Part shown: positions 22,364 to 52,600 of the stretch, in pieces
How positions within the stretch are numbered: position 1 is the first letter of the stretch
Layout of the letters: every line of letters begins with the position of its first letter
From: a virus
Length of the DNA stretch: 64,000 nucleotides
Reading direction: 5' to 3' (one strand)
Virus record (IMG/VR): IMGVR_UViG_3300036770_006414
Location: 1-64,000 of that record
Translations under genes and position numbers: made by a program
Notes under the pieces: model-generated
The model's input: the letters and a program-made list of their open reading frames with translations, nothing else
Database searches by the model: none
Told to the model about the DNA's origin: nothing

Positions 22364-22369
22364 ACAAGC

Positions 22370-22405
22370 CTGGAGGGTAGAGGAATTGCCCTTTCCCCTC
22401 CAGAC
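22370..22405 (+). promoter_or_regulatory. start-proximal hairpin (GGAGG family)
   Basis: CTGGAGGG (22370-22377) pairs with CCCTCCAG (22396-22403), 8 bp, around an 18-nt loop ending TTGCCCTTTC. After the stem come ACC and an A-run, and the ATG at 22420 lies 16 nt from the stem base. The 3' arm is the same as in the hairpins at 25634 and 27506. Confidence 0.6.
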
Positions 22406-27505: not shown

Positions 27506-27538
27506 GTCTGGAGGAGATAAGCCCTTTCCCCTCCAGAC
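27506..27538 (+). promoter_or_regulatory. start-proximal hairpin (GGAGG family)
   Basis: GTCTGGAGG (27506-27514) pairs perfectly with CCTCCAGAC (27530-27538), with a 15-nt loop AGATAAGCCCTTTCC. An A-run follows, and the ATG at 27555 is 16 nt from the stem. It is the cleanest member of the family. Confidence 0.65.
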
Positions 27539-31177: not shown

Positions 31178-31438
31178 ATGAAAAAATTTTACAACTTTTT
31201 GCTTAACATCCCTACGGGGATGGCTTTCGGCAAGCTCGCTACCTACATAGCCAGCTACCACCAGCAGGCAGATAGCCTGCAATCATTTTTAACGTTTTTG
31301 GCCGTAGTTGCCTGTTTAGCGTTATTAGCAGCTCCCTTCTGTACTCCGTTTATTACGGATTGCGAAGACGAAGACTACCCAACAACGCAGGCCATTGCAG
31401 CCTTCGTTTTGGCTGCAGCCGTAGTTGTTGCCCTGTAA
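31178..31438 (+). CDS. small membrane protein
   Basis: This 86-aa protein has membrane segments at about residues 35-53 (LQSFLTFLAVVACLALLAA) and at the C-terminus (AIAAFVLAAAVVVAL), with an acidic loop ITDCEDEDYP. It is the first gene after the tandem promoters, so probably highly and early expressed. An upstream ATG at 31167 gives only a five-codon frame that ends at this start (a possible leader peptide). Its stop codon lies inside the first tRNA-like element. Confidence 0.6.
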   Translation: MKKFYNFLLNIPTGMAFGKLATYIASYHQQADSLQSFLTFLAVVACLALLAAPFCTPFITDCEDEDYPTTQAIAAFVLAAAVVVAL

Positions 31439-31470
31439 GGTAAGCGCTGGGTTCGACTCCCAGCCAGGGC
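31430..31470 (+). other. tRNA top-half-like element T1
   Basis: The outer stem GCCCTG/CAGGGC (31430-31435 and 31465-31470) encloses a linker with GG (TAAGGTAAGC) and a T-arm: CTGGG, loop TTCGACT, CCCAG (31447-31463). No D-arm or anticodon arm exists. The element starts within the end of the upstream gene and ends 15 nt before the ATG at 31486, with CTAAAT in the spacer. Confidence 0.65.
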
Positions 31471-31485
31471 TCTAAATTTTTGAGT

Positions 31486-31737
31486 ATGAAAAAGAGGATA
31501 CCCATGCCATCTCACCAGTACTGGAAGGACTGGTTTGATGACCTGCAAGAGCGGACTGGATTCAGGCTTATGCCTAGAGCTCTGGCAGTTATTATCAACA
31601 TCGCGGAGGAGATAGACCCTCCGCATGAGGACTTCGAGCTTCTGTATAATATGCACACCATTGGGGGAGACCTCGATGGGGAGCTATATACAATAGATAA
31701 TGACGAGTACCACCAATGGTGGCTCGTTAGCCGATAG
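31486..31737 (+). CDS. hypothetical protein, paralogue of the next gene
   Basis: This 83-aa protein shares a pattern with the product at 31805: MPS...W..(F/Y)F, GF(R/E)L(M/T)PRA, E.D......, (M/L)H.IGG. It is acidic and rich in Trp and Tyr and is predicted helical. Start ATG 31486 is preferred over TTG 31480 because it is exactly 15 nt from the tRNA-like element. No function is known. Confidence 0.6.
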   Translation: MKKRIPMPSHQYWKDWFDDLQERTGFRLMPRALAVIINIAEEIDPPHEDFELLYNMHTIGGDLDGELYTIDNDEYHQWWLVSR

Positions 31738-31745
31738 CCCCTCTC

Positions 31746-31789
31746 CTCTCCCGACGGTCCTAGTAGGGGTTCGATTCCTCTAGGGAGAG
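31746..31789 (+). other. tRNA top-half-like element T2
   Basis: The outer stem CTCTCCC (31746-31752) pairs with GGGAGAG (31783-31789), a perfect 7 bp. The linker begins GACGGTC. The T-arm is AGGGG, loop TTCGATT, CCTCT (31765-31781). A 15-nt spacer, CTAAATATTAATGAT, leads to the ATG at 31805. Confidence 0.7.
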
Positions 31790-31804
31790 CTAAATATTAA
31801 TGAT

Positions 31805-32128
31805 ATGGCAGTTGTGAACATACGCGAAAGCGGCTTGTCCAGCCGCCTTGAGCGAATGCCATCCGTAGACAAATGGATAGCATACTTCTCCAAGCGGAGA
31901 GAGGAGGACGGCTTTGAGCTGACCCCTCGAGCCAAGGACAAGCTGCAATTTCTGCTCATCGAGGCTGACGAGCAGGATTTCGACTACTACTTGGATGATC
32001 TGATAAGCCTCCATTGCATAGGCGGCACAACCGAGAAGGATTACCTTCTAATTGTCGACGAGGAGGAATTAGGTATATATATATGCGACCTAGACTCCTA
32101 CATGGCTACCTATCACTACAAACGATAG
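31805..32128 (+). CDS. hypothetical protein, paralogue of the previous gene
   Basis: This 107-aa protein is longer than its upstream paralogue by an N-terminal extension (MAVVNIRESGLSSRLER). The shared core is MPSVDKWIAYFSKRREEDGF, LTPRAKDKL and SLHCIGG, followed by a C-terminal strand pair with LLIVDEEELGIYICDLD. The two genes are flanked by matching tRNA-like elements, so gene and element probably duplicated together. Confidence 0.6.
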   Translation: MAVVNIRESGLSSRLERMPSVDKWIAYFSKRREEDGFELTPRAKDKLQFLLIEADEQDFDYYLDDLISLHCIGGTTEKDYLLIVDEEELGIYICDLDSYMATYHYKR

Positions 32129-32136
32129 GCTGCCCA

Positions 32137-32179
32137 CCACCTCAACGGTTCCTCGCGGGTTCGATTCCCGCGGAGGTGG
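32137..32179 (+). other. tRNA top-half-like element T3
   Basis: The outer stem CCACCTC (32137-32143) pairs perfectly with GAGGTGG (32173-32179). The linker is AACGGTTCC. The T-arm is GCGGG, loop TTCGATT, CCCGC (32155-32171). The spacer CTAAATTTTACCGAT (15 nt) leads to the ATG at 32195. The outer stem sequence is unrelated to T2 but the pairing is kept. Confidence 0.7.
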
Positions 32180-32194
32180 CTAAATTTTACCGAT

Positions 32195-32473
32195 ATGGAA
32201 CAAATTGTCAAGATGCCCGACCTAGTGCATCAATGGAGAAACTTTATCTACTTCGGGACGACTTCGAGCATGAAATTTCTGCCGATAGCGAGGCAGTGGT
32301 TGGACCAGCTGAATGACTCGGAGCGATTGGAACCAGTAAAAAAGGTGGCCGCACAAGCCGAGGCTATCATGAAACTACATGGCCTGCCTGCCATCTGTTT
32401 CGACGACGACGGCGTATACAGGCTAGTTGCCTACGAGGCAGGCTTTGGCCTCGAGCGCCTGACAAGGGTATAA
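32195..32473 (+). CDS. hypothetical protein
   Basis: This 92-aa protein is mostly helical (FLPIARQWLDQLNDSERLEP, VAAQAEAIMKLHG), ending in a strand region with CFDDDGVYRLVAYEA. No family is recognised. Both the gene before and the gene after are separated from it by tRNA-like elements, so each has its own leader. Confidence 0.6.
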   Translation: MEQIVKMPDLVHQWRNFIYFGTTSSMKFLPIARQWLDQLNDSERLEPVKKVAAQAEAIMKLHGLPAICFDDDGVYRLVAYEAGFGLERLTRV

Positions 32474-32480
32474 ACCCTTC

Positions 32481-32524
32481 CTCTCCCGACGGTCTACACG
32501 TAGGTTCGACTCCTACGGGGAGAG
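32481..32524 (+). other. tRNA top-half-like element T4
   Basis: The outer stem CTCTCCC (32481-32487) pairs with GGGAGAG (32518-32524), as in T2. The linker begins GACGGTC. The T-arm is GTAGG, loop TTCGACT, CCTAC (32500-32516). The spacer is CTAAACAATACTGAT (15 nt) before the ATG at 32540. T-stem bases differ from T2 at several pairs with pairing preserved. Confidence 0.7.
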
Positions 32525-32539
32525 CTAAACAATACTGAT

Positions 32540-32911
32540 ATGACAATATTCCTTGGTGGCAGCTGGCCAGAGGCTGCCCAGAACTTGGTACGGGGGGCGT
32601 GGTGTGGCCTCTACGAAATACACTACCTTACTAAGAACGACGTCGTCGACCTTTCGTTCTGCCAGTACGACGACCCGAGCCCTAGGCTGGTCAAGAAACT
32701 AACCAACAGGTTACGCATTGTCAAGGCAGGCCAGCAATGGTTCAGCCTGAGACAAAACGGGAACGCGGTATTTTTATACCCGACGCCCGATTATAAATTC
32801 CTTTGCGAGTACCTCGATATGACGTTTGAAAGCTACGAGGATGCCCAAAAACACTTTCAAAGCGTGGAGGTGGCGGTCGAGCGGGGAGATCTCGTCCCCA
32901 TTGAAGATTAA
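32540..32911 (+). CDS. hypothetical protein
   Basis: This 123-aa protein is mixed alpha/beta, with an aromatic N-terminus (MTIFLGGSWPEAAQNLVRGA), a basic strand region (LVKKLTNRLRIVKAGQQWF) and an acidic helical end. No signal peptide or motif is seen. Confidence 0.6.
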   Translation: MTIFLGGSWPEAAQNLVRGAWCGLYEIHYLTKNDVVDLSFCQYDDPSPRLVKKLTNRLRIVKAGQQWFSLRQNGNAVFLYPTPDYKFLCEYLDMTFESYEDAQKHFQSVEVAVERGDLVPIED

Positions 32912-32921
32912 GTAGCCTGTT

Positions 32922-32963
32922 TTCCCCGACGGTCTTTGCGCGGGTTCGACTCCCGCGGGGGAG
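32922..32963 (+). other. tRNA top-half-like element T5
   Basis: The outer stem TTCCCC (32922-32927) pairs with GGGGAG (32958-32963), 6 bp including one G-U. The linker begins GACGGTC. The T-arm is GCGGG, loop TTCGACT, CCCGC (32940-32956). The spacer CTAAACTTTACCGAT (15 nt) leads to the ATG at 32979. Confidence 0.7.
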
Positions 32964-32978
32964 CTAAACTTTACCGAT

Positions 32979-33347
32979 ATGGAAAAATGGAAAGCGTCGG
33001 ACTACTTTGCCGACAACAGGGGCATCGTCCCTATGAAGGGAATGTTCCTATACAGACCAATGGGCGACGGATGTACCGAGTATAGGTACATCAACAGCGT
33101 ACAAGAAAGGGGTCTGCGCCCCAGAAAATACCTCGTAACCGTCGCAATAGACGACGAGGAACTATACGACCACCTAGACAGCTCCGAGATGGAGGTGACA
33201 GGCGACGGACTCGAAAAAAACGTGGTGCGCGACTTGCAGGAGTACTTCCTCCGCAAGCGAGTAATTTACGCCGACGAACCCCACCCCATGGAGGAATTCG
33301 AAGGGCTGTTTTTTACCCACGACGTGACCGAAATACCCTGCGAATAA
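32979..33347 (+). CDS. hypothetical protein
   Basis: This 122-aa acidic protein has a strand-rich N-terminal half (GMFLYRPMGDGCTEYRYINS) and DDEELYDHLDSSEMEVTG mid-protein. It is soluble and not recognised. It is the last gene led by a tRNA-like element before the leader type changes back to GGAGG hairpins. Confidence 0.6.
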   Translation: MEKWKASDYFADNRGIVPMKGMFLYRPMGDGCTEYRYINSVQERGLRPRKYLVTVAIDDEELYDHLDSSEMEVTGDGLEKNVVRDLQEYFLRKRVIYADEPHPMEEFEGLFFTHDVTEIPCE

Positions 33348-33372
33348 CAAGCTGACATACAAGTTAAACAAC

Positions 33373-33419
33373 GTCTGGAGGGGATAGGCCTGCCAACGGG
33401 ACACCCTTCCTCTCCAGAC
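33373..33419 (+). promoter_or_regulatory. start-proximal hairpin (GGAGG family)
   Basis: GTCTGGAG (33373-33380) pairs with CTCCAGAC (33412-33419), and further G-C pairs extend inward (GGGA with TTCC). The 3' arm reads CCCTTCCTCTCCAGAC, almost the same as the 5' arm of the tRNA-like element T4 (CCCTTCCTCTCCCGAC). The ATG at 33437 is 17 nt away. Confidence 0.6.
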
Positions 33420-33436
33420 CCAAAAACAACGCAGAT

Positions 33437-33973
33437 ATGAAACACGCATTTATTTGGGCTGACAAAAACGGCCTCAGCGGCAACCCTTGGGCTGATGGCT
33501 CACACGCATTGATAACCAAGGCAGCAACAACCAAAAAGGTAAAGGTAAACCCCAAGGCAATACACGACCTGATAACCCTTGCCTATTCAATAGACGAGGA
33601 GGCCGAGGTAGAAGCCCGAGCCTACCTTATGGATCGAGACTGGGTATTCAAAGAAGGCGGCAAAAAGTATTATATCGACCAGGACAAGGACGGTACAATA
33701 TGGGCAGTAGAAGTAGGGAGGTTCCTCAACGAACCAGACCCCAACCGCCCTTGGGAATACAAAGACCTGGCCTTCCGATATATCGACGAGCAGGGGCGTG
33801 AATGGTACTCCAAGGCAGCACCAGTACGGTTCACAAAGTACAACCTCTGGACACACCACGAGGAGCGGCCAATGTTGCGCCAGTCAACAGCAAAGCCTAT
33901 ACCAATGGGAGCACGCTGGACAGCAGCCAATTGGGCAAACAGCCTCCAGCACATACCAATAGAACTCGAATAA
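33437..33973 (+). CDS. two-domain fusion: PWVF-type domain plus RPW domain
   Basis: This 178-aa protein combines two recurring modules. Residues 1-95 are shared with the proteins at 36801 and 37082: a helical part, then DWVFKEGGKKYYIDQDKDG, which corresponds to the RPWVF...NxxxL..(E/T)DG block there. Residues about 97-178 are an RPW domain (NRPWEYKDLAFRYIDEQG, WYSKAAP, ANWANSLQHIPIE). It shows that the families exchange modules. Confidence 0.6.
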   Translation: MKHAFIWADKNGLSGNPWADGSHALITKAATTKKVKVNPKAIHDLITLAYSIDEEAEVEARAYLMDRDWVFKEGGKKYYIDQDKDGTIWAVEVGRFLNEPDPNRPWEYKDLAFRYIDEQGREWYSKAAPVRFTKYNLWTHHEERPMLRQSTAKPIPMGARWTAANWANSLQHIPIELE

Positions 33974-33980
33974 CCGAACC

Positions 33981-34017
33981 GTCGGGAGGCGAGAGGCGAC
34001 CCCTTTACCCTCCCGAC
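33981..34017 (+). promoter_or_regulatory. start-proximal hairpin (GGAGG family)
   Basis: GTCGGGAGG (33981-33989) pairs perfectly with CCTCCCGAC (34009-34017). An A-rich leader of 14 nt separates the stem from the ATG at 34032. Compared with the hairpin at 27506, the fourth pair is G-C instead of T-A, a compensatory change on both arms. Confidence 0.65.
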
Positions 34018-34031
34018 AAAAAACAAAGACC

Positions 34032-34304
34032 ATGTATATAGACTATTGGCCAACAGAAACAACAGAGCCAAACGAGGATGAACGTTGGCTACCATTTGCC
34101 GATACTTGGCTAGATGCTTGCGAAGAGATTGCAAGCAAGCGCAGATACTCCGCAGAAGCCCGCAAGATAGCAAAGGCCTATTTAATGGCGTCGAGCGACG
34201 AGCGAGAGAAGGAGCTGACAGACGAATTAGAGCTATTGCCAGACATAGGTACAGGCAGACGCCTTCGGGGAGGGTTGTTTGAAATTGAATATCAAGCTGT
34301 TTAA
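34032..34304 (+). CDS. hypothetical protein
   Basis: This 90-aa protein is helical and acidic with a Trp/Tyr-rich N-terminus (MYIDYWPTETTEPNEDERWL) and a helix AEARKIAKAYLMASSDERE. The C-terminal strand is GGLFEIEYQAV. It is followed within 10 nt by the next gene. No function is recognised. Confidence 0.6.
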   Translation: MYIDYWPTETTEPNEDERWLPFADTWLDACEEIASKRRYSAEARKIAKAYLMASSDEREKELTDELELLPDIGTGRRLRGGLFEIEYQAV

Positions 34305-34314
34305 AAATACCGCC

Positions 34315-34728
34315 ATGAGTGTAATAGATGCCAGCAGCCTTGGGCTGCGCTGGACAGAGCTGGAGCTGCCGTTCTCTTTGAAATACGGCCTCGTATATAC
34401 GGAGGAGCCAGTGACCCTCTATATATACGACGGGGACTTTGTACAGCGGGTAAAACCGCGGAGGTACGAGCTGGAGGCTGCAATAACAGCCGACAAGGCT
34501 AATGTTGAGGCTGGCCTCGGGGTAAGCCTTGAGAACCTGTTTGCCTACAGTTCAGACCTTGAGCTGGTACAGGTATTACAATACAACAAGCCGCTGGATT
34601 GGTTCTGGCGGGTTACGAAGGGGGAAGGGTGTCCGTTTATTTATACTTGGCCGATGGTACTCGGGGAATTTTGCCACCAATTTAAAATAGACCCACAATG
34701 GATCGAAGAGTTAATGCGGGAGGCATAG
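34315..34728 (+). CDS. hypothetical protein
   Basis: This 137-aa protein is mixed alpha/beta (VTLYIYDGDFVQRVKPRRYE, VLQYNKPLDWFWRVTKGEG). Start ATG 34315 is favoured over a TTG at 34279, which lies in the end of the previous gene. Its 3' end overlaps a small membrane-protein gene by 31 nt. Confidence 0.6.
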   Translation: MSVIDASSLGLRWTELELPFSLKYGLVYTEEPVTLYIYDGDFVQRVKPRRYELEAAITADKANVEAGLGVSLENLFAYSSDLELVQVLQYNKPLDWFWRVTKGEGCPFIYTWPMVLGEFCHQFKIDPQWIEELMREA

Positions 34729-34877
34729 CCCTCGCTGTATTGGCCTTTGCTTTGGCCTCGGCTGGTACGTTTAGGTACTGGCTGGTAGATAGCAGGGCAT
34801 ATTTGCTCTGCACGATAGTACAACTGGTGGCAGCTTTTGTCGCCATAGTACTCGCTGAGGTACACGAAAGCAAATAA
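34698..34877 (+). CDS. small two-span membrane protein
   Basis: This 59-aa frame has two membrane segments (GGIALAVLAFALASAGTF and CTIVQLVAAFVAIVLAEV) joined by RYWLVDSRAY. It overlaps the preceding gene by 31 nt in another frame, as tiny membrane genes do elsewhere in this block. The function is unknown. Confidence 0.55.
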   Translation: MDRRVNAGGIALAVLAFALASAGTFRYWLVDSRAYLLCTIVQLVAAFVAIVLAEVHESK

Positions 34878-34882
34878 TATAC

Positions 34883-34931
34883 GGGGTTCGGGTAGCGATA
34901 CAGTCAACTCGCAAGTATCCGCTCGGACCCC
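34883..34931 (+). other. imperfect hairpin with a motif shared with 21457-21481
   Basis: GGGGTTCG (34883-34890) and CGGACCCC (34924-34931) close a hairpin that continues inward with a bulge. Inside it, 34887-34911 matches 21457-21481 at 21 of 25 positions (core AGCGATAC, GTCA, CTCG). It is downstream of a gene end and is not followed closely by a start codon. Confidence 0.4.
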
Positions 34932-35247
34932 CTCGAAACAAAATTCTAAAACAGGTATTCTATGGCGTGAAAATTACTCGTATTGTATTCTGTTTGCAAG
35001 CATAAGCCGTTGTTACTGCGGCGCTTGCGCAGATCTACTGGCTCAACAGGGGTTAATTGGAGGGGGTTATTGGTTGTGGGTGCTGTTGGTTGGGCTGTGG
35101 GTTGTGTTAATTGGTCTAGAGGGTAAAGGTGCTGGGTCTATTCGGGGTACTTTGGAAGCCTCGGGTTGTACCAACAGGCCGAAATACCCAGCGACAGGGG
35201 CAATAAGCCTGCCCACATGTCGTTATGTATAAGAAAAAAATATAATT
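34932..35247 (+). other. gene-free leader region
   Basis: No convincing coding frame is seen in this stretch of about 315 nt. It is G/T-rich in the middle (GGTTATTGGTTGTGGGTGC) and ends in a hairpin (35192-35222) and an A-rich leader. A promoter could be present, but no box of the TAnnTTTG form stands out. Confidence 0.4.
35192..35222 (+). promoter_or_regulatory. hairpin upstream of the gene at 35248
   Basis: CGACA (35192-35196) pairs with TGTCG (35218-35222), and GGGGCA (35197-35202) pairs with TGCCC (35210-35214) inside it. The base is 25 nt from the ATG, longer than the usual 14-17 nt. An A-rich segment follows. Confidence 0.45.
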
Positions 35248-35490
35248 ATGAATATCACAGAGCGTTTATTGGGGCTAATTAGCCCCGCTCCCAGCAAGGA
35301 CTTGAGTGTCCTTGTTGACAGGCAGTACCTAGCCGAGCGTGCTGCTGAAGCAATTGCCAACGGGGAGGACTTTGTTGTGCCCCATTACTACCGTTATGCC
35401 TCGGGGTCTTTCCATCGGAGGAAGAAGGACGCCCAACACAACGCGAAGCGGATACAGATTGGTAAATTCAAATACTACTACGCGCAATGA
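35248..35490 (+). CDS. small basic hypothetical protein
   Basis: This 80-aa protein has a helical N-terminal half (SVLVDRQYLAERAAEAIANG) and a very basic C-terminal part (SFHRRKKDAQHNAKRIQIGK), which may bind nucleic acid. The end YYYAQ overlaps the next start as ATGA. Confidence 0.6.
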   Translation: MNITERLLGLISPAPSKDLSVLVDRQYLAERAAEAIANGEDFVVPHYYRYASGSFHRRKKDAQHNAKRIQIGKFKYYYAQ

Positions 35491-35924
35491 GAACAGAAGC
35501 AGAAGTGCGCAGGTTCCTGCGCGATCAAGGCATTACCAAAGAGGTAATCCAAGGTATATATGGGCAGAAGCAAGCCCACTTGGCTGGGTCGGACAGGCCT
35601 GTATACCTTGTTGCTATGGGAGCGGTTGTTGATCTCGTAATGAACGACCCTCAGAAGCTCTCGGACTTTATGCATTATTGCTCCGAGCTTTTGATCGAGT
35701 CGTATACTGAATGGCCGCTTGGTATTATACAGCACCTTATGACCAGCGATGCTGGCAGGATAGCTGTTACTGACGCCTTGAGAGAAAAGGGCGAGCTTGG
35801 CGGGCTCATTGATTATTACCTGACCATGGAGGGCGTGGAGATGCTCTTCGATGGGGAGTACTACGGGGAGGTCACAATTGCTTCATCAGGTGGGGCATAT
35901 ATTTACCACGTCTTTATTCAATAA
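35487..35924 (+). CDS. hypothetical protein, tandem paralogue A
   Basis: This 145-aa protein is helical and shares with the next gene the blocks (Y/S)xTEWPLGIIQHLMTSD and AGRIAVTDALRE. The N-terminal part EVRRFLRDQGITKEVIQ also aligns. It is soluble, without recognised motif. Confidence 0.65.
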   Translation: MRTEAEVRRFLRDQGITKEVIQGIYGQKQAHLAGSDRPVYLVAMGAVVDLVMNDPQKLSDFMHYCSELLIESYTEWPLGIIQHLMTSDAGRIAVTDALREKGELGGLIDYYLTMEGVEMLFDGEYYGEVTIASSGGAYIYHVFIQ

Positions 35925-35927
35925 ACT

Positions 35928-36374
35928 ATGACGACATCAGAAAAGCATGCCCGCGGGCTCATCAAAAAGTGGGGCTTAGACCCAGACGAGGTTGTCGAAC
36001 GCTTGCACGGCGAGCGTGAGGCTCGCATCAAGGCGGGCGATACAGAACTGTATTTTATTCGGTACTCCGAGTTGCGCAACCGACTGTTTTGCAGGCCTAA
36101 CTGGCTGCCTAAATTAATAGAGGACGCGGGCGAGGATGTGGTATCTTATGTGACCAAATGGCCTATTGAGGTGGTTACCTACCTCCTCTCGACGGAGGAA
36201 GGCATCGCGGTTGCTGCCAAGGGTATAAAGAGGCTGAGTTGTCATTATGCTTTGTATGACGCCCTTGTCAATCGGGGCAGGCATTTGAAGTACTTTGATG
36301 GATTGGCCGCTGGCGAGGTATGGGGTATTGACAGGCATTTAATGTTCCTAGACGTAGATGCCGTTAATATTTGA
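35928..36374 (+). CDS. hypothetical protein, tandem paralogue B
   Basis: This 148-aa protein is a diverged copy of the preceding one: ARGLIKKWGLDPDEVVERL for the N-terminal helix, VTKWPIEVVTYLLSTEEG for the central block, and a different C-terminus (DRHLMFLDVDAVNI). Both copies contain a helix with a conserved KWP or EWP, which may be the family signature. Confidence 0.65.
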   Translation: MTTSEKHARGLIKKWGLDPDEVVERLHGEREARIKAGDTELYFIRYSELRNRLFCRPNWLPKLIEDAGEDVVSYVTKWPIEVVTYLLSTEEGIAVAAKGIKRLSCHYALYDALVNRGRHLKYFDGLAAGEVWGIDRHLMFLDVDAVNI

Positions 36375-36483
36375 TAGGGGCAATTGTAGGGTCCTTGACG
36401 GGGATAAACCCTACGCTGCAAAGAAAAACCAATACAGCCCAATTGTGCGCTGGATTCGTACTATACTGGGGCTTGGTATTTAA
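36358..36483 (+). CDS. very small hypothetical frame (tentative)
   Basis: A 41-codon frame (MPLIFDRGNCRVLDGDKPYA...VRWIRTILGLGI) starts inside the preceding gene's end. It contains at DNA level a 7-bp hairpin GTAGGGT/ACCCTAC (36386-36414). It could be a small gene or just a structured spacer. Confidence 0.3.
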   Translation: MPLIFDRGNCRVLDGDKPYAAKKNQYSPIVRWIRTILGLGI

Positions 36484-36490
36484 ATAACGT

Positions 36491-36519
36491 CGGGAGGGAA
36501 AGGGTGCGAGTACCTCCCG
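36491..36519 (+). promoter_or_regulatory. start-proximal hairpin (GGAGG family)
   Basis: CGGGAGG (36491-36497) pairs with CCTCCCG (36513-36519). The stem is followed by CTAAAA, as in the tRNA-like elements, and the ATG at 36535 is 15 nt away. It links the two leader types: a hairpin arm of the GGAGG family with the CTAAA spacer. Confidence 0.6.
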
Positions 36520-36534
36520 CTAAAAAATTACGCA

Positions 36535-36804
36535 ATGAAAGACGCAATCACAGACGCAATAATGAATCGGAGGTGGATACATTCCGACTGGCCTTGGAGA
36601 GCCATTGACAAAAATGGGCATGATTGTTACTTTAAGGAAAGGCCTCTTAAAGGCGATATAGTATGGCTGCCAGCTCATCGGGGCGGTAACTTTGTCACCG
36701 CGTCTCGCATCAGGGGTCGCTATGAAAACGAAGAGCAATGGCTGGCCGAAAACTGGGACAAAACAGTACAACACATCAACGAATTCAACAACAATAATAA
36801 ATGA
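36535..36804 (+). CDS. RPW-domain protein (last copy)
   Basis: This 89-aa single-domain member has RRWIHSDWPWRAIDKNG (RPW changed to RRW), CYFKERP, and AENWDKTVQHINEF at the SLQ position. It is the most distant copy from the main cluster and is followed by two PWVF-type paralogues. Confidence 0.65.
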   Translation: MKDAITDAIMNRRWIHSDWPWRAIDKNGHDCYFKERPLKGDIVWLPAHRGGNFVTASRIRGRYENEEQWLAENWDKTVQHINEFNNNNK

Positions 36805-37085
36805 AAAAATACGTAATTAAGAAATCCGTAGAGTTCGCTATGCGTGCTGTTGTACGGGACCTGATCCAAGACTCTTGGAAGGGAAGATTGTCTCTCAATG
36901 ACGATATCATCTCGAGTATGAATGCCATTATCTGGGAGGCAACCAATGAAACCAGAGAGGCGGCGGTTAACAAGTTATTTTACGACAAGGAGCGCCCATG
37001 GGTGTTCCAAGAAAATTTCAATTACTTCCGCTTGGGGGTTGAAGATGGCAATATTGTCGCAATACCAGCAAACAAAGAACAATGA
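36801..37085 (+). CDS. PWVF-type paralogue 1
   Basis: This 94-aa protein has a helical N-terminal two thirds (LSLNDDIISSMNAIIWEATN) and a short C-terminal strand pair after KERPWVFQENFNYFRLGVED. It aligns with the next gene and with the first half of the protein at 33437. The start overlaps the RPW gene by 4 nt and the end overlaps the next gene by 4 nt. Confidence 0.65.
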   Translation: MKKYVIKKSVEFAMRAVVRDLIQDSWKGRLSLNDDIISSMNAIIWEATNETREAAVNKLFYDKERPWVFQENFNYFRLGVEDGNIVAIPANKEQ

Positions 37086-37366
37086 AATACTTACTGACGA
37101 CCTACGAGCAGGGTCGTAACAACTGGGCTGCCGTAGCCAACATGCTGCTCGAGCAGAACGACGCTGGAAAGATAAGGCTTAACCCCGAGGTAATCCTGGA
37201 GCTGGATACCCTGGCTAACGACCAGGACATCTACTCGGACGAGTTCTTGGAGACGGTCGACACCATCTTTGCTAACAAGAACCGCCCATGGGTGTTTTCG
37301 CTCAACGACAACAAGTATAAACTAACCCTCGACACTGACGGCTTCTGCGCCGTTGTTGTCGAATAA
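37082..37366 (+). CDS. PWVF-type paralogue 2
   Basis: This protein has the same length (94 aa) and pattern as its upstream neighbour: IRLNPEVILELDTLANDQ, then KNRPWVFSLNDNKYKLTLDT and an ending GFCAVVVE. Only scattered residues are identical, so the duplication is not recent. No function is recognised. Confidence 0.65.
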   Translation: MKYLLTTYEQGRNNWAAVANMLLEQNDAGKIRLNPEVILELDTLANDQDIYSDEFLETVDTIFANKNRPWVFSLNDNKYKLTLDTDGFCAVVVE

Positions 37367-37377
37367 AACAACAGCCA

Positions 37378-37815
37378 ATGAACGCATATATTTTGCGAGA
37401 GAAGTACGGTGTGCCAGAGGACTTCGATGGTCTCGGCAGCTACATCGCAGAGAACCACGCGGTATCCTTCAAAATAGAGATGCTCTCCGAAAACATCGAC
37501 AGCCGTATGGGCACAATGCCTAACTACCTTGTCAGCTCTCCCAAGGAGCGGGTAAGCTGGCTCAAGGCAGAAAACGACTTCGATGCATGGCTCATGGCTC
37601 GCGCTGCAACTGGCGACGATACAGTTCTAAAGGTCGGGGACCGAGTGATTGACATACGGCTTGTACATGGCAGAGTCGTTGCGGAGGAGTTCGAGGACGG
37701 TAAGATGTGGGTCGTTATACAGCCCGACGGTGCAGAGCGAGTGACCAAGGTCCTTATCGACGGGCGTATTACCCCTACCTGTAACTACAGACGCTGGAGA
37801 AAAGTAATCCAATAA
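37378..37815 (+). CDS. hypothetical protein with SH3-like GDxV module
   Basis: This 145-aa protein has a helical N-terminal part and, from about residue 80, a beta module VLKVGDRVIDIRLVHGRVVA that resembles those at 24074 and 26425. The end is basic (CNYRRWRKVIQ), suggesting nucleic-acid contact. Confidence 0.6.
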   Translation: MNAYILREKYGVPEDFDGLGSYIAENHAVSFKIEMLSENIDSRMGTMPNYLVSSPKERVSWLKAENDFDAWLMARAATGDDTVLKVGDRVIDIRLVHGRVVAEEFEDGKMWVVIQPDGAERVTKVLIDGRITPTCNYRRWRKVIQ

Positions 37816-37817
37816 CC

Positions 37818-37854
37818 GTCTGGAGGGGAAAGGTTGGTCCTCTCTCCTCCAGAC
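37818..37854 (+). promoter_or_regulatory. start-proximal hairpin (GGAGG family)
   Basis: GTCTGGAGG (37818-37826) pairs perfectly with CCTCCAGAC (37846-37854). The stem is followed by CTAAAT, the conserved spacer start of the tRNA-like elements, and the ATG at 37870 is 15 nt away. The loop contains AAGGTTGGTCC. Confidence 0.65.
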
Positions 37855-37869
37855 CTAAATTCATTTAAC

Positions 37870-38331
37870 ATGTTTAGCAAGAATTCATTGATCTACACAA
37901 TTCCATCCAACGGTCGCAAATCAGCCCTGTATGGCAAGATCATCGACGAGGATGGAGACAAGTTTACCGCCGAGCTAGTCGACGGGTCTGTTATATCTTT
38001 CTGCGGAGAAGGCCGAGAGTACATTAACGGCAACGTCTGGGAGGATACCCAGCCAACCGTCAGGCCAGCAACGGATGCCGAGAATCGGTATTTTATTGGT
38101 GGTCCTCTTGTATTCTTATCTGGGTTCATCACTCCCCTTCAACTTCACGCAATATATGTAGCATCCGACAGCGACTCACCTCTTGGAGAATCCCTGAAGT
38201 GCTTAACAACAATCCCAGATCCTGTAGAGGTTATTAACAGGATCATACTACAAATCGACGATGAATACCCAGAGGAACAAATAGCCCTAAAGCTACTTGA
38301 GCTGGCAGCTTCATTACTCACACGCAAATAA
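37870..38331 (+). CDS. hypothetical protein
   Basis: This 153-aa protein has a beta-rich N-terminal half (SALYGKIIDEDGDKFTAELV) and helical C-terminal half (EEQIALKLLELAASLLTRK). Start ATG 37870 is set by the hairpin spacing. No family is recognised. Confidence 0.6.
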   Translation: MFSKNSLIYTIPSNGRKSALYGKIIDEDGDKFTAELVDGSVISFCGEGREYINGNVWEDTQPTVRPATDAENRYFIGGPLVFLSGFITPLQLHAIYVASDSDSPLGESLKCLTTIPDPVEVINRIILQIDDEYPEEQIALKLLELAASLLTRK

Positions 38332-38341
38332 CATACACAAC

Positions 38342-38701
38342 ATGTTCTTTATCGTAAAGCCTACGGGCGTATATCAAGCTAGAATAGTAGACTCTGGGCT
38401 CAGGCACTTCGAGGTTGTTAAAATCATCAAGGGCAAGGAGGTTGGTCCCCCCGAAAAGGTAACGAAGTTGTACAGCCTCGAGGAGGCTTGCAATAGCTGG
38501 TGGCTTCGTTATGCTGAGCGCTCGGTTGTTTATTGGAGGGGAAATCTGGTGGCTTACATGCAGCTCGGCTATTTGGAGTCTGGTCGCTTCGAAGCCCACC
38601 TGTTAACCGAGGCGGGGATCGACGTGATACTCGACGAGAGCGAAGTTATATCTTCGAAGCAGGACCTTTTCACTAGGCTCACGAACGAATTATTTTTCTA
38701 A
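38342..38701 (+). CDS. hypothetical protein, tandem paralogue C
   Basis: This 119-aa protein shares with the next gene MF(F)IV(K/H)P(T/N)G, then (K)LYSLEEACNSWW, a GxxVxYM core, and AHLLTEAGIDVILDE. The tandem copies follow each other by 20 nt. The fold is probably alpha/beta; no motif indicates activity. Confidence 0.65.
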   Translation: MFFIVKPTGVYQARIVDSGLRHFEVVKIIKGKEVGPPEKVTKLYSLEEACNSWWLRYAERSVVYWRGNLVAYMQLGYLESGRFEAHLLTEAGIDVILDESEVISSKQDLFTRLTNELFF

Positions 38702-38720
38702 ACGCACTAAATCAAATCGT

Positions 38721-39080
38721 ATGTTTATTGTGCATCCGAACGGCATCTTCAAAGCCAAGTTAAAGGAGTCGACTCCAGAGGGACTTGTTGTTGAAACAGA
38801 AAAAAAAGACGGTCCTTATTACGGTGGCCGCTATCTGGTACAAAAGGTTTACTGTCTCGAAGAGGCTTGCTACCAGTGGTGGCGCTTATTCGCAGCGCAC
38901 GAAGTTGTCATTATTGATGGGAAAATTGTGGAATACATGCGGCTATCGGAGTCTCATTCTGGCGAATTTTTTGCCCACCTGCTTACATCTAGTGGAATCG
39001 ATACCACTTTAAAAGACGAGGATACCATTAACTCTGCTGCGGTTCTTTTTCAAAAACTCAAAAAAATATTTTTCGCATGA
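38721..39080 (+). CDS. hypothetical protein, tandem paralogue D
   Basis: This 119-aa protein has the same length as the preceding one: MFIVHPNGIFKAKL, VYCLEEACYQWWRLF, GKIVEYMRL, AHLLTSSGIDTTLKD. Nearly all Trp and Gly positions are kept between copies. It ends in a 4-nt overlap with an exported protein gene. Confidence 0.65.
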   Translation: MFIVHPNGIFKAKLKESTPEGLVVETEKKDGPYYGGRYLVQKVYCLEEACYQWWRLFAAHEVVIIDGKIVEYMRLSESHSGEFFAHLLTSSGIDTTLKDEDTINSAAVLFQKLKKIFFA

Positions 39081-39388
39081 AACAAATGATTTTTGTCGCA
39101 ATCTTTGCATCACTGACAGCTTCCGCGCAGTATAGCGTCATTCAAATTTGCGGATACACTCAGCCAATTGTTAGCCTTGACAACTGCGAGGTAAACACGC
39201 TGCCCACCGAGATAACGATCCCCTGCTTAGGGTTGGTTATTTGCGACTTGGTCTCCGACAGCCAAGTAATCGATGGGGCGCTGTATACTACATGGAATGG
39301 CGACGGCGTTACAGCTACACAGACCCGCAGCGAAGGGGGATTCAAAATGCTGATCGACGACAACGGCTGCAGGATTGTTATTCAATAA
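39077..39388 (+). CDS. small exported protein with several cysteines
   Basis: This 103-aa protein has a signal peptide (MKQMIFVAIFASLTASAQ, probable cleavage after SAQ) and a mature beta-rich domain with five Cys (ICGYTQP, DNCEVN, IPCLGLVICD, NGCRIVIQ), suggesting disulphides in the periplasm. It may alter the envelope during infection. No family is recognised. Confidence 0.6.
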   Translation: MKQMIFVAIFASLTASAQYSVIQICGYTQPIVSLDNCEVNTLPTEITIPCLGLVICDLVSDSQVIDGALYTTWNGDGVTATQTRSEGGFKMLIDDNGCRIVIQ

Positions 39389-39399
39389 TCGCAAAAACC

Positions 39400-39603
39400 A
39401 TGGAAGGTAAAAGATTGTATAACCACCCATGTAATAGCAGGTGGGTAATGGATATCGATGAATTCCAAGAGCTTGTCGAAGAAGGGACAATAACCGACGA
39501 AGACGGCCAAGGGTACTGGACAAAGGGTGCGCTTTCATCTAGGGACGACGTATTCGATACCCCACAAGAGGACGCAGACGGGGTTGTTTGGTTTAACAAG
39601 TAA
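39400..39603 (+). CDS. small acidic hypothetical protein
   Basis: This 67-aa protein begins MEGKRLYNHPCNSRWVMDID and is otherwise acidic (FQELVEEGTITDEDGQGYW). It is predicted soluble and is not recognised. It ends just before the sixth tRNA-like element. Confidence 0.55.
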   Translation: MEGKRLYNHPCNSRWVMDIDEFQELVEEGTITDEDGQGYWTKGALSSRDDVFDTPQEDADGVVWFNK

Positions 39604-39609
39604 CCCACA

Positions 39610-39650
39610 CCCAGCGATGGTCGCAGGCTGGTTCGACTCCAGCCGCTGGG
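39610..39650 (+). other. tRNA top-half-like element T6
   Basis: The outer stem CCCAGCG (39610-39616) pairs perfectly with CGCTGGG (39644-39650). The linker ATGGTCGCAG contains the GG. The T-arm is GCTGG, loop TTCGACT, CCAGC (39627-39643) and adjoins the outer stem without a gap, giving exactly the 7 + 5 bp of a tRNA acceptor/T-arm stack. The spacer CTAAATAAATTTTC (14 nt) leads to the ATG at 39665. Confidence 0.7.
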
Positions 39651-39664
39651 CTAAATAAATTTTC

Positions 39665-40606
39665 ATGAATTACACAAAGATCAACATGGCCGACCACAAC
39701 GGGGTAGAGGTAGAGGACCTCCCGAGCTGGGGGGCTATCGACACCTCGGGGTTCACGAAGTTCAGGAGAGCCCCGTTCTCTAACGGCAGGTTCTATTTCA
39801 ACTCCGTCGATCCGTTCTTTTACAGCGGCCTTACTAACCCGTTGGGGAGGGTAATGGACAAACGACACCTGCATGCTGCAGCCATCAGAGCTGCCTACGA
39901 GGGAAGGGATACTCAATTCGAGTGGGAGGTGGCGGCCAACTATGGGACGATGTTCCATCTATTGGTTGGACTCCACGAGGAGGGAGCGCTTCAGTTCTCC
40001 TTCGAAAACGCGGACTGGGAGGGGGTGCTTGACTCGTTTGTTGAGGAGTACCGTTACTATGACTTCAGAAGGGTCTGGAGGGATCAGGTGCGCAATGACT
40101 TTGCCGCCTACTTCCAATGGAAAAAAGACTTTTCGGTCAGAGTACTCAGCACCGAGGTCATGGTAAGCGACAGACAGAATGCTGTCGCGACTCCGCTTGA
40201 CATAATCTGCGAGATGATGTTTGGTAGGAAGAAGATCTATGCCAACGTGAACATCAAAACAGGGGACCATGCGTTCACGGAGGATAACCTCCTCCAGATT
40301 GCGTGCGAAGCCCACCTCTGGAACAAGACCGAGGGAAAGCCCTTTAGCTTGTCTGGATCCTTCTGTTGGAGGCCAAAGAAAAGGAACCGAACGCCAGGTG
40401 CGTACGAGATGAGCAAGAATATGTGCTTAAAAACGGATACAGAGCTAACCGCCAGAATAGAATATGTCTTATATTCGGCCAAGCTGCTCGGGCTCAACAA
40501 GCCCAGCGGCAATATTGTAAGATACCATGGCGACCAAAACGAGTGGCGGGTAGAGAAACTCACCCCCGCGCAATGGTTGCAAGAATGGCAGAGCCTAGGT
40601 TTGTAA
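39665..40606 (+). CDS. putative PD-(D/E)XK (RecB/Cas4-like) nuclease
   Basis: This 313-aa protein has a pattern like phage RecB-family exonucleases: NYGTMFHLLVGLHEE, then STEVMVSDRQNAVATPLDII and YANVNIKTGDHAFTEDNLLQ. This resembles the order H, D, (E/D)xK, Q of the PD-(D/E)XK core, but the expected acidic residue before the Lys is Asn (NIK), so activity is uncertain. It starts the replication part of the block and shares TAATG with the next gene. Confidence 0.5.
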   Translation: MNYTKINMADHNGVEVEDLPSWGAIDTSGFTKFRRAPFSNGRFYFNSVDPFFYSGLTNPLGRVMDKRHLHAAAIRAAYEGRDTQFEWEVAANYGTMFHLLVGLHEEGALQFSFENADWEGVLDSFVEEYRYYDFRRVWRDQVRNDFAAYFQWKKDFSVRVLSTEVMVSDRQNAVATPLDIICEMMFGRKKIYANVNIKTGDHAFTEDNLLQIACEAHLWNKTEGKPFSLSGSFCWRPKKRNRTPGAYEMSKNMCLKTDTELTARIEYVLYSAKLLGLNKPSGNIVRYHGDQNEWRVEKLTPAQWLQEWQSLGL

Positions 40607-49681: not shown

Positions 49682-52600
49682 TCATGGCTGAATCTCTAAA
49701 ACTCTCGCTATCTCATCAGGATGCATTCCCGCCGTAAGCATCTTCGCTACAATATCCCTACTCTTGCGGTGCATCTTATCCATATACTTCTCGAACAAAT
49801 CGTCGGGCATAGTCCTGTAAGATTGGGCAGTCTGATCTAGCTGCTTCTTAAAGAATCGCTGCGACAATTTAAAGAACTCGTAGTAAAGAACGGGGTCGTC
49901 GGCAAGCTTCACTCCCCCGATTTCCGTCTGCCGAGAAACCTGCGGAGTGTAGTAGTTCTTATCCATAAACAACTTCTCGACGGGGTCGAGTTCAGTCTCT
50001 GGCCTGTAAAAACGCTTGGTCCCTATCGTATGATACCAAACATTGTGAAGGATGCCTTCCTGGACCTGCTTGCTTATTGGGCGGCCAAAATGGTCGAGCG
50101 CAGGCTTGTCGCTTGCTATTTGTCGAACAAACGGAACGCTCTTAAGCAACGACGACCACCCGAGCAACTCAGGCTGATCGTAGCCCATCGAGGCCTCCGC
50201 ATTGTTGAGTATGGCGCTTAGCGGTATGTACTTAGACATCACTCGGCTTATAGCCTCGTTCATCTTTTCTAAACTCGTATACCGCTCTGAGTTCGATATA
50301 GTTTGAATAAGGTCCGAGAGGCTAGACAAGAAGGCAATATCTAGCATGTATGCTGGGAATCCCGCAACCGCTGCCGCCCAAGCCATATCTTTTTGCTTCT
50401 CGTTACCATAACGCTCAACATCGAAGAGGTTGCCAACAAACGAAAGGGCAAGCCCTATGGGAAGCATACTGTAGGATACGTACCCAATCCCTGGAACACG
50501 GATGGAATGCCATTTAACGCCGCGAGCCTCAAGCTCCTTCTTCTTCTTGTAATCACTTGGCCCCTGGCCAGTCATTATTGGATAGCCCTCCTCGTCCTCT
50601 CCGCCAAGCGTCATTCCCGCAATAGTCATAAAGATAAGCCCAACAGCACCCCGCCAGATAAGTTCATTACGACGAAGTATCTGCTCATCAACATCCCGAA
50701 GGAAACCTCCGCCCCCACGTATATTCGTAGTGGGTAGGGACTTTCCAAACATCTTGTTACTGGCCGTCGTGAGGGTAAAGCCGTAATACCTAGCCATAGC
50801 AACTGGCGGCAAGTAATCCAACCAAGTGTTGAACAGGTTAGCCAGCAGGTTGGTAAACGGCACAACGTTGTTACCAAACGGAAGCTTTCTAATAAAATCA
50901 TTGAGCGATACCGCAATAGCCCCAACGGTCCCCTCGGGTGGGAATCTGAAGACCGCCCTATTCGCCCTGCGCTCGGCGATGTCCTTGACCCTGAAGTCCG
51001 ACGGAAACCTCTCCATTGCACCGTTGATGACGTCCTGCTCACTAAACGGAAGGCCGCTCGCCTGCAAGTCGTTCCTCGTCTGATCCATTAGCTGCTTCCA
51101 GGTCGTATCGATATCACCTATTGCCCAGCCACGAAGGCGATCAGCAATTGCCGCCCGTATCTTTTCCCTGTTCTTTTTGTTGTTCGGGTCGCCAGTTATA
51201 TCCCCTCGAGACTGAAGATCGTTGAGAACCTCTTGATACAAGTCTCCCTTCTCTGTTACCTCCCTCGAAGCCAACTGCTCACTGGCGGTAACATAATAGG
51301 ATACCATCGTAGGGGTTCTGAATATAGCGTCCTCGGCATCCATCAGCCGCGAGTTGTACTTGGCCATCAGCGCATACCCACCAAAGAAAGCCTTGAGTAT
51401 ATCATTGAGCGCCGCCGCAGGCTTGCCCCGCTTGAGGTTGGGAAGAACCTGTGATAGGTGCGCCATAACGTCGGAAGCAAAGCGGTAGCGCTCCTGGAGG
51501 TTAGGTATTTCGTACTTCTGTCCCTGGATCTGAGTGAGTCGGCCAGTCTTGATAATGTCCCGTGCATTCTTGAGCCCCAGCTTGAGGCCAAACTTGGCAG
51601 CCCTAAGCTTCTCGCCAGTGCTGAACCTGTACTGGGGTGCTACCTTCATCTCTGCCGATCCCGTTATTGCGCGAACCCCAGGGAGGTCAAGTATCGGAGC
51701 AAACAACGTCGATGCCGTATCACCAAGCGTCTGGAACAGGTTGCCCATAATGTTGGCAAGGTGAGTACCTGGAGAGGAGAGCATATTGTAATACATCATC
51801 ATGCTCACATACTCCCCAATTGGCTCTCTGCCAACCTTGCGAAAAGCCAACGCCATCAGGTCCTTGATAGCGGCCTCTTTCATTGCGTACGTGGGACTCT
51901 TGGTGAGTATCTCGTTGGTCTTATCGATAAGGTCCTGGAGTTCCTGGTCGAGCCCCTGGAAGCCTGCACCAGCGGCCCACGTCCTTGTTATCAAGTCCGT
52001 CGCTGCAGCCTCGTCGCCCCAGTCTAGGGCCTGAACAAAGGCCTTCTCACCCTTCGTGGCATTCTTGTTGAACTCCTCGCGGGCATCCCGCTTGAAGGAG
52101 TTGTATATCCGCTTTGCCAGAACTGCCGAAGAGTAAATACCGTAATTCTCAAGAACCGCCTTAACAGCCTCCTCGCTCCAGGCGAATGTATCTACGTTTG
52201 AAATGAAGGCTGCATTGTTGCCAATCTCCCGAACGCTAAACACACCGTTAACGGGGCGGTGATCCCATATCTCCAGGGCCTGTGCATCGGTAAGGCCGAA
52301 GCGTGCACGCATCTTTGTAGCCCACGTCTTAAACTCGGTATTACCCTCCAAGGCCGTATATATCCCGTATTCAACCATCAGCGGGACCATCTTGGGGTCC
52401 AGGCCCGTGGGCGTAAAGCGCGTCTGGAAGCGAGTGCTCCCTCCCTTCTGCTCCGCAAGCCTCCGCTCGACGTCGGCCTTGGCCTCCTTGAGCCATTCCT
52501 TATCGCGAAGAGTAGAACTCTGCGCACTGCGCCCAGCGGCAGCCTTGGCGGCCTTGTACTTGTCAATGCTTCGGCTGATCCTATTCTGGTACTTTTTCCT

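Follow-up and report, generated by a model that had tools for sequence, protein, structure and literature searches.

The 64,000-nucleotide (nt) window analysed here, taken from an IMG/VR virus record of 71,188 bases (IMGVR_UViG_3300036770_006414), carries six compact elements that each resemble the top half of a transfer RNA (tRNA). Each is ~42 nt long and consists of an outer stem of 6-7 base pairs (bp), a 10-11 nt linker containing GG, and a T-arm with a 5-6 bp stem and a TTCGAYT loop (Table 1). The linker holds the motif RAYGGTY in five of the six, with AAGGT in element 1. Directly 3' of the outer stem comes CTAAA, preceded in element 1 by an extra T, and an ATG follows at distances of 15, 15, 15, 15, 15 and 14 nt, in the order of Table 1. 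A preliminary description had reported these elements with their parts and positions, and all six are real. Its account of the architecture and spacing stands, with corrections of detail: the T-stem varies between 5 and 6 bp, element 1 overlaps the upstream stop codon (TAA, 31436-31438), and the outer stem of element 5 closes with a U-G pair.

A strict scan of the window for this compact architecture returned six matches on the plus strand and none on the minus strand, compared to a mean of 0.005 and a maximum of 1 in 200 dinucleotide-shuffled windows. The sequence GGTTCGAYTCC, with one mismatch allowed, occurs eight times in the window against 2.0 expected. ARAGORN predicts no tRNA genes in the window, and Rfam 15 finds nothing there at gathering scores. 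When the RNA is folded, the proposed structure is the minimum in five of the six elements; the minimum for element 6 adds a 2-bp hairpin in the linker, and element 5 folds as proposed with extra pairs to flanking bases. Folding energies relative to shuffles give z ~ -2 in four elements and lie at shuffle level in the other two, none of them striking. Because folding energy alone is unremarkable, the case for the elements rests on comparison.

Table 1. Features of the window. Element sequences are given as outer stem / linker / T-stem-loop-T-stem / outer stem; R1 is the covariance model described in the text; ORF, open reading frame.
Feature	Positions	Strand	Details
Element 1	31430..31470	+	GCCCTG / taaggtaagc / GCTGGG-ttcgact-CCCAGC / CAGGGC; R1 E = 6.8e-10
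Element 2	31746..31789	+	CTCTCCC / gacggtcctag / TAGGGG-ttcgatt-CCTCTA / GGGAGAG; R1 E = 1.2e-5
Element 3	32137..32179	+	CCACCTC / aacggttcct / CGCGGG-ttcgatt-CCCGCG / GAGGTGG; R1 E = 9.6e-11
Element 4	32481..32524	+	CTCTCCC / gacggtctaca / CGTAGG-ttcgact-CCTACG / GGGAGAG; R1 E = 2.6e-7
Element 5	32922..32963	+	TTCCCC / gacggtctttg / CGCGGG-ttcgact-CCCGCG / GGGGAG; R1 E = 1.3e-8
Element 6	39610..39650	+	CCCAGCG / atggtcgcag / GCTGG-ttcgact-CCAGC / CGCTGGG; R1 E = 3.6e-12
Five small consecutive ORFs	31486..33347	+	31486-31737, 31805-32128, 32195-32473, 32540-32911, 32979-33347; function unknown; each with element directly 5'
ORF behind element 6	39665..40606	+	weakly exonuclease-like, phrog_298, E = 7e-4
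Second-family hairpin	22368..22405	+	16 nt before ATG
Second-family hairpin	27506..27538	+	16 nt before ATG
Second-family hairpin	33373..33419	+	stop-hairpin-start slot
Second-family hairpin	33981..34017	+	14 nt before ATG
Second-family hairpin	36489..36519	+	then CTAAA; 15 nt before ATG
Second-family hairpin	37818..37854	+	then CTAAA; 15 nt before ATG
3481-amino-acid ORF	49682..60127	-	candidate giant virion protein

For comparison we built a covariance model of 41 positions, R1, with membership cut at E < 0.001 per genome. R1 recovers exactly the six elements, both in the window and in the whole 71-kb record. Candidate loci elsewhere were collected by sequence-pattern scans of viral contigs followed by a structure scan, which found dozens of compact elements in contigs unrelated to each other. 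The fetch patterns contained GGT, TTCGAY and CTAAA, so letter conservation is biased in the Bacteroidota set; this bias is much smaller for stems, linker length and gene distances, and shuffles together with a linker test guard against circularity. In the linker test, perfect 6-bp flank pairing was counted for 419 T-arms at every linker length from 0 to 74. Two main peaks emerged, one at 10-11 nt representing the mini-elements and one at 40-41 nt, with a shoulder near 50-54, representing true tRNAs; most other lengths had zero to three paired cases. This test was chosen for its independence from stem pairing, as the loci had been fetched by sequence pattern.

In 13 gapless copies, 143 of 143 pair cells form and nine of 11 pairs changed on both sides; these copies were selected by pairing, so their shuffle control is not independent. 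Compensatory changes are also found between syntenic orthologues aligned by their flanks (L027/L049, L347/L416, L337/L417, L183/L212 and L399/L141), and neighbouring elements differ in outer-stem sequence while keeping the pairing. The bimodal linkers, the compensatory changes in orthologues and the copies in unrelated phages show that structure is under selection, bearing out the earlier view of the elements as the acceptor/T-arm half of a tRNA. That they might be degraded tRNA genes, which the preliminary description had also argued against, is rejected in view of the covarying stems and the fixed linker length.

The family totals ~120 distinct copies in more than 60 phage contigs (R1 matches in two locus sets number 85 and 53, counting repeats of one contig and weak matches). 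Several contigs hold 4-10 copies, including L347 with four, L355 with seven, L409 with eight listed, one of them partial, and the contig of L080 with 10; within a genome, the copies are nearly always clustered in a single orientation. In whole records of isolated phages, R1 at E up to 0.05 matches 13 sites in VanLee and 10 in Morgana (both Gordonia phages), four in Octobien14 (one likely a true tRNA), three each in Journey13 and Dagobah (one partial in each), and one each in SWU2, George and Reedo, the weakest of these matches being insecure. R1 has no match in TM4, lambda or phi80, and one weak partial match in T4 (E = 0.44). Large genome searches gave matches in at least 3 of 296 Bacteroidota genomes and at least 1 of 199 genomes from the phylum of Streptococcus suis, lower bounds because only the top candidates per genome were scored; the match in the latter phylum (L474) looks by eye like a full tRNA gene. 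One early pattern set mostly retrieved true tRNAs and transfer-messenger RNAs (tmRNAs), for example L115, L117, L130 and L140, and on twelve related loci Rfam 15 reported only true tRNAs and one hammerhead elsewhere. The phages that carry the family belong to at least two bacterial phyla. The covariance search that the preliminary description had suggested has in this way yielded copies in other phages, with compensatory changes and with starts downstream.

In Streptococcus agalactiae prophages (L178 2880-3310, Streptococcus phage Javan5), several tRNA-like or T-arm-like elements are clustered in the intergenic stretch that precedes an HNH endonuclease and the portal gene. Neither ARAGORN nor Rfam reports a tRNA at this cluster. 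The S. agalactiae copies are excluded from the stop, start and tail statistics given below.

A 43-nt element from a Streptomyces-type prophage (L028) is 93% identical to one in mycobacteriophage SWU2 even though the flanks are not shared, and a search with this element reached cluster-A mycobacteriophages and phages of Gordonia, Arthrobacter and Streptomyces. Such near-identity, and the arrays of small genes of unknown function with one element each, could suggest mobile cassettes or recombination sites, wherein a small gene and its element are exchanged like integron attC, or attP-like tRNA remnants. The differing outer stems of neighbouring elements, with their pairing kept, speak against exchange, and we find either version barely plausible. 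An attP site contains no more of a tRNA gene than its 3' part, whereas the elements keep both stem strands; on this ground the attP sites of tRNA-targeting integrases were rejected.

Of 124 distinct copies, 98 have an upstream ORF whose end is close to the element. In 42 of these 98 copies with a mapped stop, the stop lies 4-10 nt before the outer stem, versus ~2 expected, and folds show the acceptor/T-stem helix with a single-stranded 5' leader, which in the main class measures 4-10 nt from the stop. A same-strand start occurs within 45 nt in 60 of 76 copies, compared to 12 of 76 on the mirrored strand. In the main Bacteroidota class the start is 14-16 nt after the element, with a motif resembling a Shine-Dalgarno sequence (SD) in only 3 of 65. 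In the actinophage class the start is mostly 26-53 nt away, and an SD-like motif lies between element and start in 29 of 42. The element-to-start spacing thus ranges across the family from 3 to more than 40 nt, the shortest being that of a Bacteroidota copy (L471) with its stop flush with the element and its ATG 3 nt behind.

Individual copies show further features. Gordonia copies (L508, L511, L517 and others) are often followed by another small hairpin and then, ahead of the SD, by a conserved GGCACCCAAC. The annotation of Journey13 gene 74 (L507 1931-2773) places its start 5' of an element with which the ORF overlaps; the annotated start is therefore probably wrong, and the likely true one is the ATG that follows the SD located 3' of the element. 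In one Bacteroidota genome (G143; L472 and L473), mini-elements lie behind tRNA genes, identified at L472 as tRNA-Ile and tRNA-Ala. This site is perhaps the spacer of a ribosomal RNA (rRNA) operon, a guess from gene order, and the mini-elements there could be processing sites or tRNA relics.

Six other intergenic gaps on the plus strand of the window contain plain hairpins with GTCKGGAGG...CCTCCMGAC stems, which form a second family in the same stop-hairpin-ATG slot (Table 1). Their starts lie 14-17 nt behind, and CTAAA follows two of them. Because the plain hairpins share this spacing and CTAAA, both features belong to the phage's initiation region and not to the tRNA-like fold. At the same time, the shared operon slot points to a cis role on the messenger RNA (mRNA) for the tRNA-like elements. 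The preliminary description had raised start-site marking in place of an SD as one possible role. As a general role this is rejected in view of the SD-like motifs of the actinophage class, the variable spacing, and the plain hairpins at the same distance from their starts.

The elements of this phage sit in a non-structural region, and Pfam has no match for the five small ORFs or for the ORF behind element 6. Profile matches identify the terminase as phrog_6681 and the major head protein as phrog_11589. The terminase matches include Flavobacterium, Bacteroides, crAss-type and Cellulophaga phages, and its terminase and head protein matches place the phage near the crAss-like phages of Bacteroidota. 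The 3481-amino-acid ORF adjoins ORFs of 480 and 777 amino acids; from its size and position, it could encode the giant virion protein known from crAss-like phages. A blastn search of the element region against phages gave no match, and searches for relatives returned none with the helicase and two short contigs only with the terminase.

We favor a model in which the elements are sites where host RNase P, perhaps with RNase Z, punctuates polycistronic phage mRNA, and give it a probability of about one half; among the roles put forward in the preliminary description, RNase P processing appears to be the best and is the one we predict. Each element folds into an acceptor-like stem, a stemless D-loop-like GG linker and a T-arm, stacked to ~12 bp. 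The acceptor-like stem and T-stem form a stacked helix of 11-13 bp with TTCGAYT loops, and the elbow features, the TTCGAYT loop and the linker GG, recur across phyla (partly biased by the search patterns). In the isolate actinophage copies, 12 nt separate the T-loop from position 73, and R73-C74-K75 follows in 24 of 24, so that two bases, R73 and C74, of the four in an RCCA tail are retained. We infer cleavage by RNase P because the elements copy the elbow, the 12-bp helix (and R73-C74) that tRNA maturation enzymes read. The mini-elements behind tRNA genes in the Bacteroidota genome also count toward this reading, as RNase P acts there anyway, and so do the D-arm-like hairpin variants of VanLee (L531, L535) and the cis role suggested by the plain hairpins.

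Host RNase P would cut on the 5' side of the outer stem, mostly a few nt after the upstream stop, where the peak at 4-10 nt means that a cut would usually spare the stop codon. RNase Z might add another cut behind the 3' strand. The upstream message would then end near its stop, and the downstream gene would be left with a separate message whose 5' end is structured or short; in the Bacteroidota phages, the 14-16 nt to the start would leave room for an SD-less initiation region. Compact phages would in this manner borrow a host enzyme for message punctuation, as T7 does with RNase III.

Several observations weigh against this model. Of the 98 copies with a mapped stop, 19 have a stop whose end falls at nt 1-9 of the element and which would be lost or cut in two by cleavage at the outer stem; this argues that cleavage does not occur in every case. 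C75 is absent in all 24 isolate copies, so the tail is never CCA, and since RNase P contacts the RCCA tail (PMC11143913, PMC12710915), its contact would be weaker. The first base of the Bacteroidota copies is mostly A or T, not G. R1 has no match in eleven isolated Bacteroidota phages, and the element is therefore optional. A stable hairpin alone could stabilise or insulate the message without cleavage, and the stops inside elements, the missing CCA and the plain hairpins that occupy this slot leave room for an uncut insulator. In such an arrangement, the hairpin would keep the SD-less initiation region open and protect the mRNA end, and the tRNA-like form would be one means of making such a hairpin. 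The peak of the Bacteroidota copies at 14-16 nt from the start, the matching spacing and occasional CTAAA of the plain hairpins, and the tolerance for stops inside the element all fit this. An insulator leaves the cross-phylum conservation of TTCGAYT and GG unexplained, and the actinophage copies lie farther off, upstream of the SD; we consider it unlikely.

Stops inside the element are also compatible with cleavage by RNase Z alone on the 3' side, wherein the element would stay on the upstream mRNA and protect its 3' end, with the downstream mRNA beginning at about position 74. CC at positions 74-75 blocks RNase Z, and none of the 24 isolate copies has it. C74, which all 24 carry, does not match the known preference of RNase Z, and we place little weight on this option. 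Returning to punctuation by RNase P, the model could extend beyond this phage: phages from several phyla of bacteria may share it, with anticodon-less mini-tRNAs between cistrons making the host's RNase P and RNase Z a general means of processing phage mRNA that sets message ends and stability, a tentative generalization to which we give somewhat less than an even chance.

Whatever their role, a common structured RNA, present also in the much-studied genomes of mycobacteriophages and Gordonia phages, apparently escaped annotation because tRNA finders look for a complete cloverleaf and because it is the pairing of the stems, not their sequence, that is conserved. If cleavage takes place, phages would be employing the tRNA maturation enzymes of the host on their messages repeatedly and throughout the genome; if it does not, a partner that binds the conserved elbow would still have to be sought. 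Gene annotation also gains from recognizing the elements, as with the start of Journey13 gene 74.

Compared to a tRNA gene, the elements share the T-loop consensus and the stacked helix of ~12 bp, and differ in having no D-arm/anticodon-arm layout and a linker of 10-11 nt versus about 40. In three copies, SWU2 L499 (about 845-910) and VanLee L531 and L535, an extra hairpin separates the outer stem from the T-arm, as if a D-arm or anticodon arm had been retained in part. Among eukaryotes, mascRNA-menRNA (RF01684) and the tRNA punctuation of mitochondria are cases of tRNA-like folds in long transcripts that are cut by tRNA enzymes. The only sequence match to mascRNA-menRNA is at element 1 and is at chance level (16.5 bits, E = 4.4).

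The tmRNA (RF00023) has a matching layout. Its tRNA-like domain has an acceptor stem, a T-arm and a reduced, stemless D-loop, and the loop-loop contacts are needed for SmpB binding (PMC3968760). The elements share the acceptor stem, the T-arm and the stemless D-loop with GG, which was seen in the three bacterial tmRNAs compared. The preliminary description had suggested that the linker GG acts like the D-loop Gs of tRNA, an idea strengthened by this tmRNA GG and by the two VanLee copies (L531, L535) in which the GG region lies in a small D-arm-like hairpin. This likeness raises the prospect of a tmRNA-domain mimic that binds SmpB (or EF-Tu), either recruiting it in cis near stops or titrating it during infection, and the up to about a dozen copies per genome would suit such a mimic. 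Unlike tmRNA, however, the elements have no helix 2, pseudoknots, tag ORF, G3-U70 or CCA, are embedded in mRNA between genes, and score against RF00023 through the T-arm only (18.5 bits, cut-off 47). Their GG is also about two bases closer to the stem, and a sponge would not need strict intercistronic placement; we therefore regard mimicry as quite improbable. tmRNA is itself processed by RNase P, which for the elements is our prediction.

Among phage repeats, SAS/ESAS of Cluster K mycobacteriophages and the repeats of Microbacterium EC, EF, EG and EI phages lie upstream of the starts of small non-structural genes (PMC3203893, PMC7302621). SAS/ESAS have a conserved 13-bp GGGATAGGAGCCC near the start and a 17-bp imperfect inverted repeat (PMC3203893), for which the authors of ESAS saw little support for a hairpin. 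These repeats are conserved in sequence and the elements differ from them in both sequence and form, in line with the lack of R1 matches in TM4. Under RNase P processing of the elements, the nearest relatives would be other tRNA-like substrates of this enzyme, which is known to process tmRNA precursors, phage M3 RNA, phage C4 RNA and some polycistronic mRNAs (PMC11143913). tRNA-like RNase P substrates within mRNA are thus already a known kind. The cut tRNA-like folds of phi80 M3, the P1/P7 C4 antisense RNA, the E. coli polycistronic mRNAs and the plant-virus tRNA-like structures (PMC11143913) are single cases, whereas the elements recur, up to about a dozen per genome, between the cistrons of unrelated phages. 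We found no earlier description of such elements in the open-licence literature searched, and what is new relative to that literature and to Rfam 15 is that anticodon-less mini-tRNAs recur between the cistrons of phages as a family that spans phyla.

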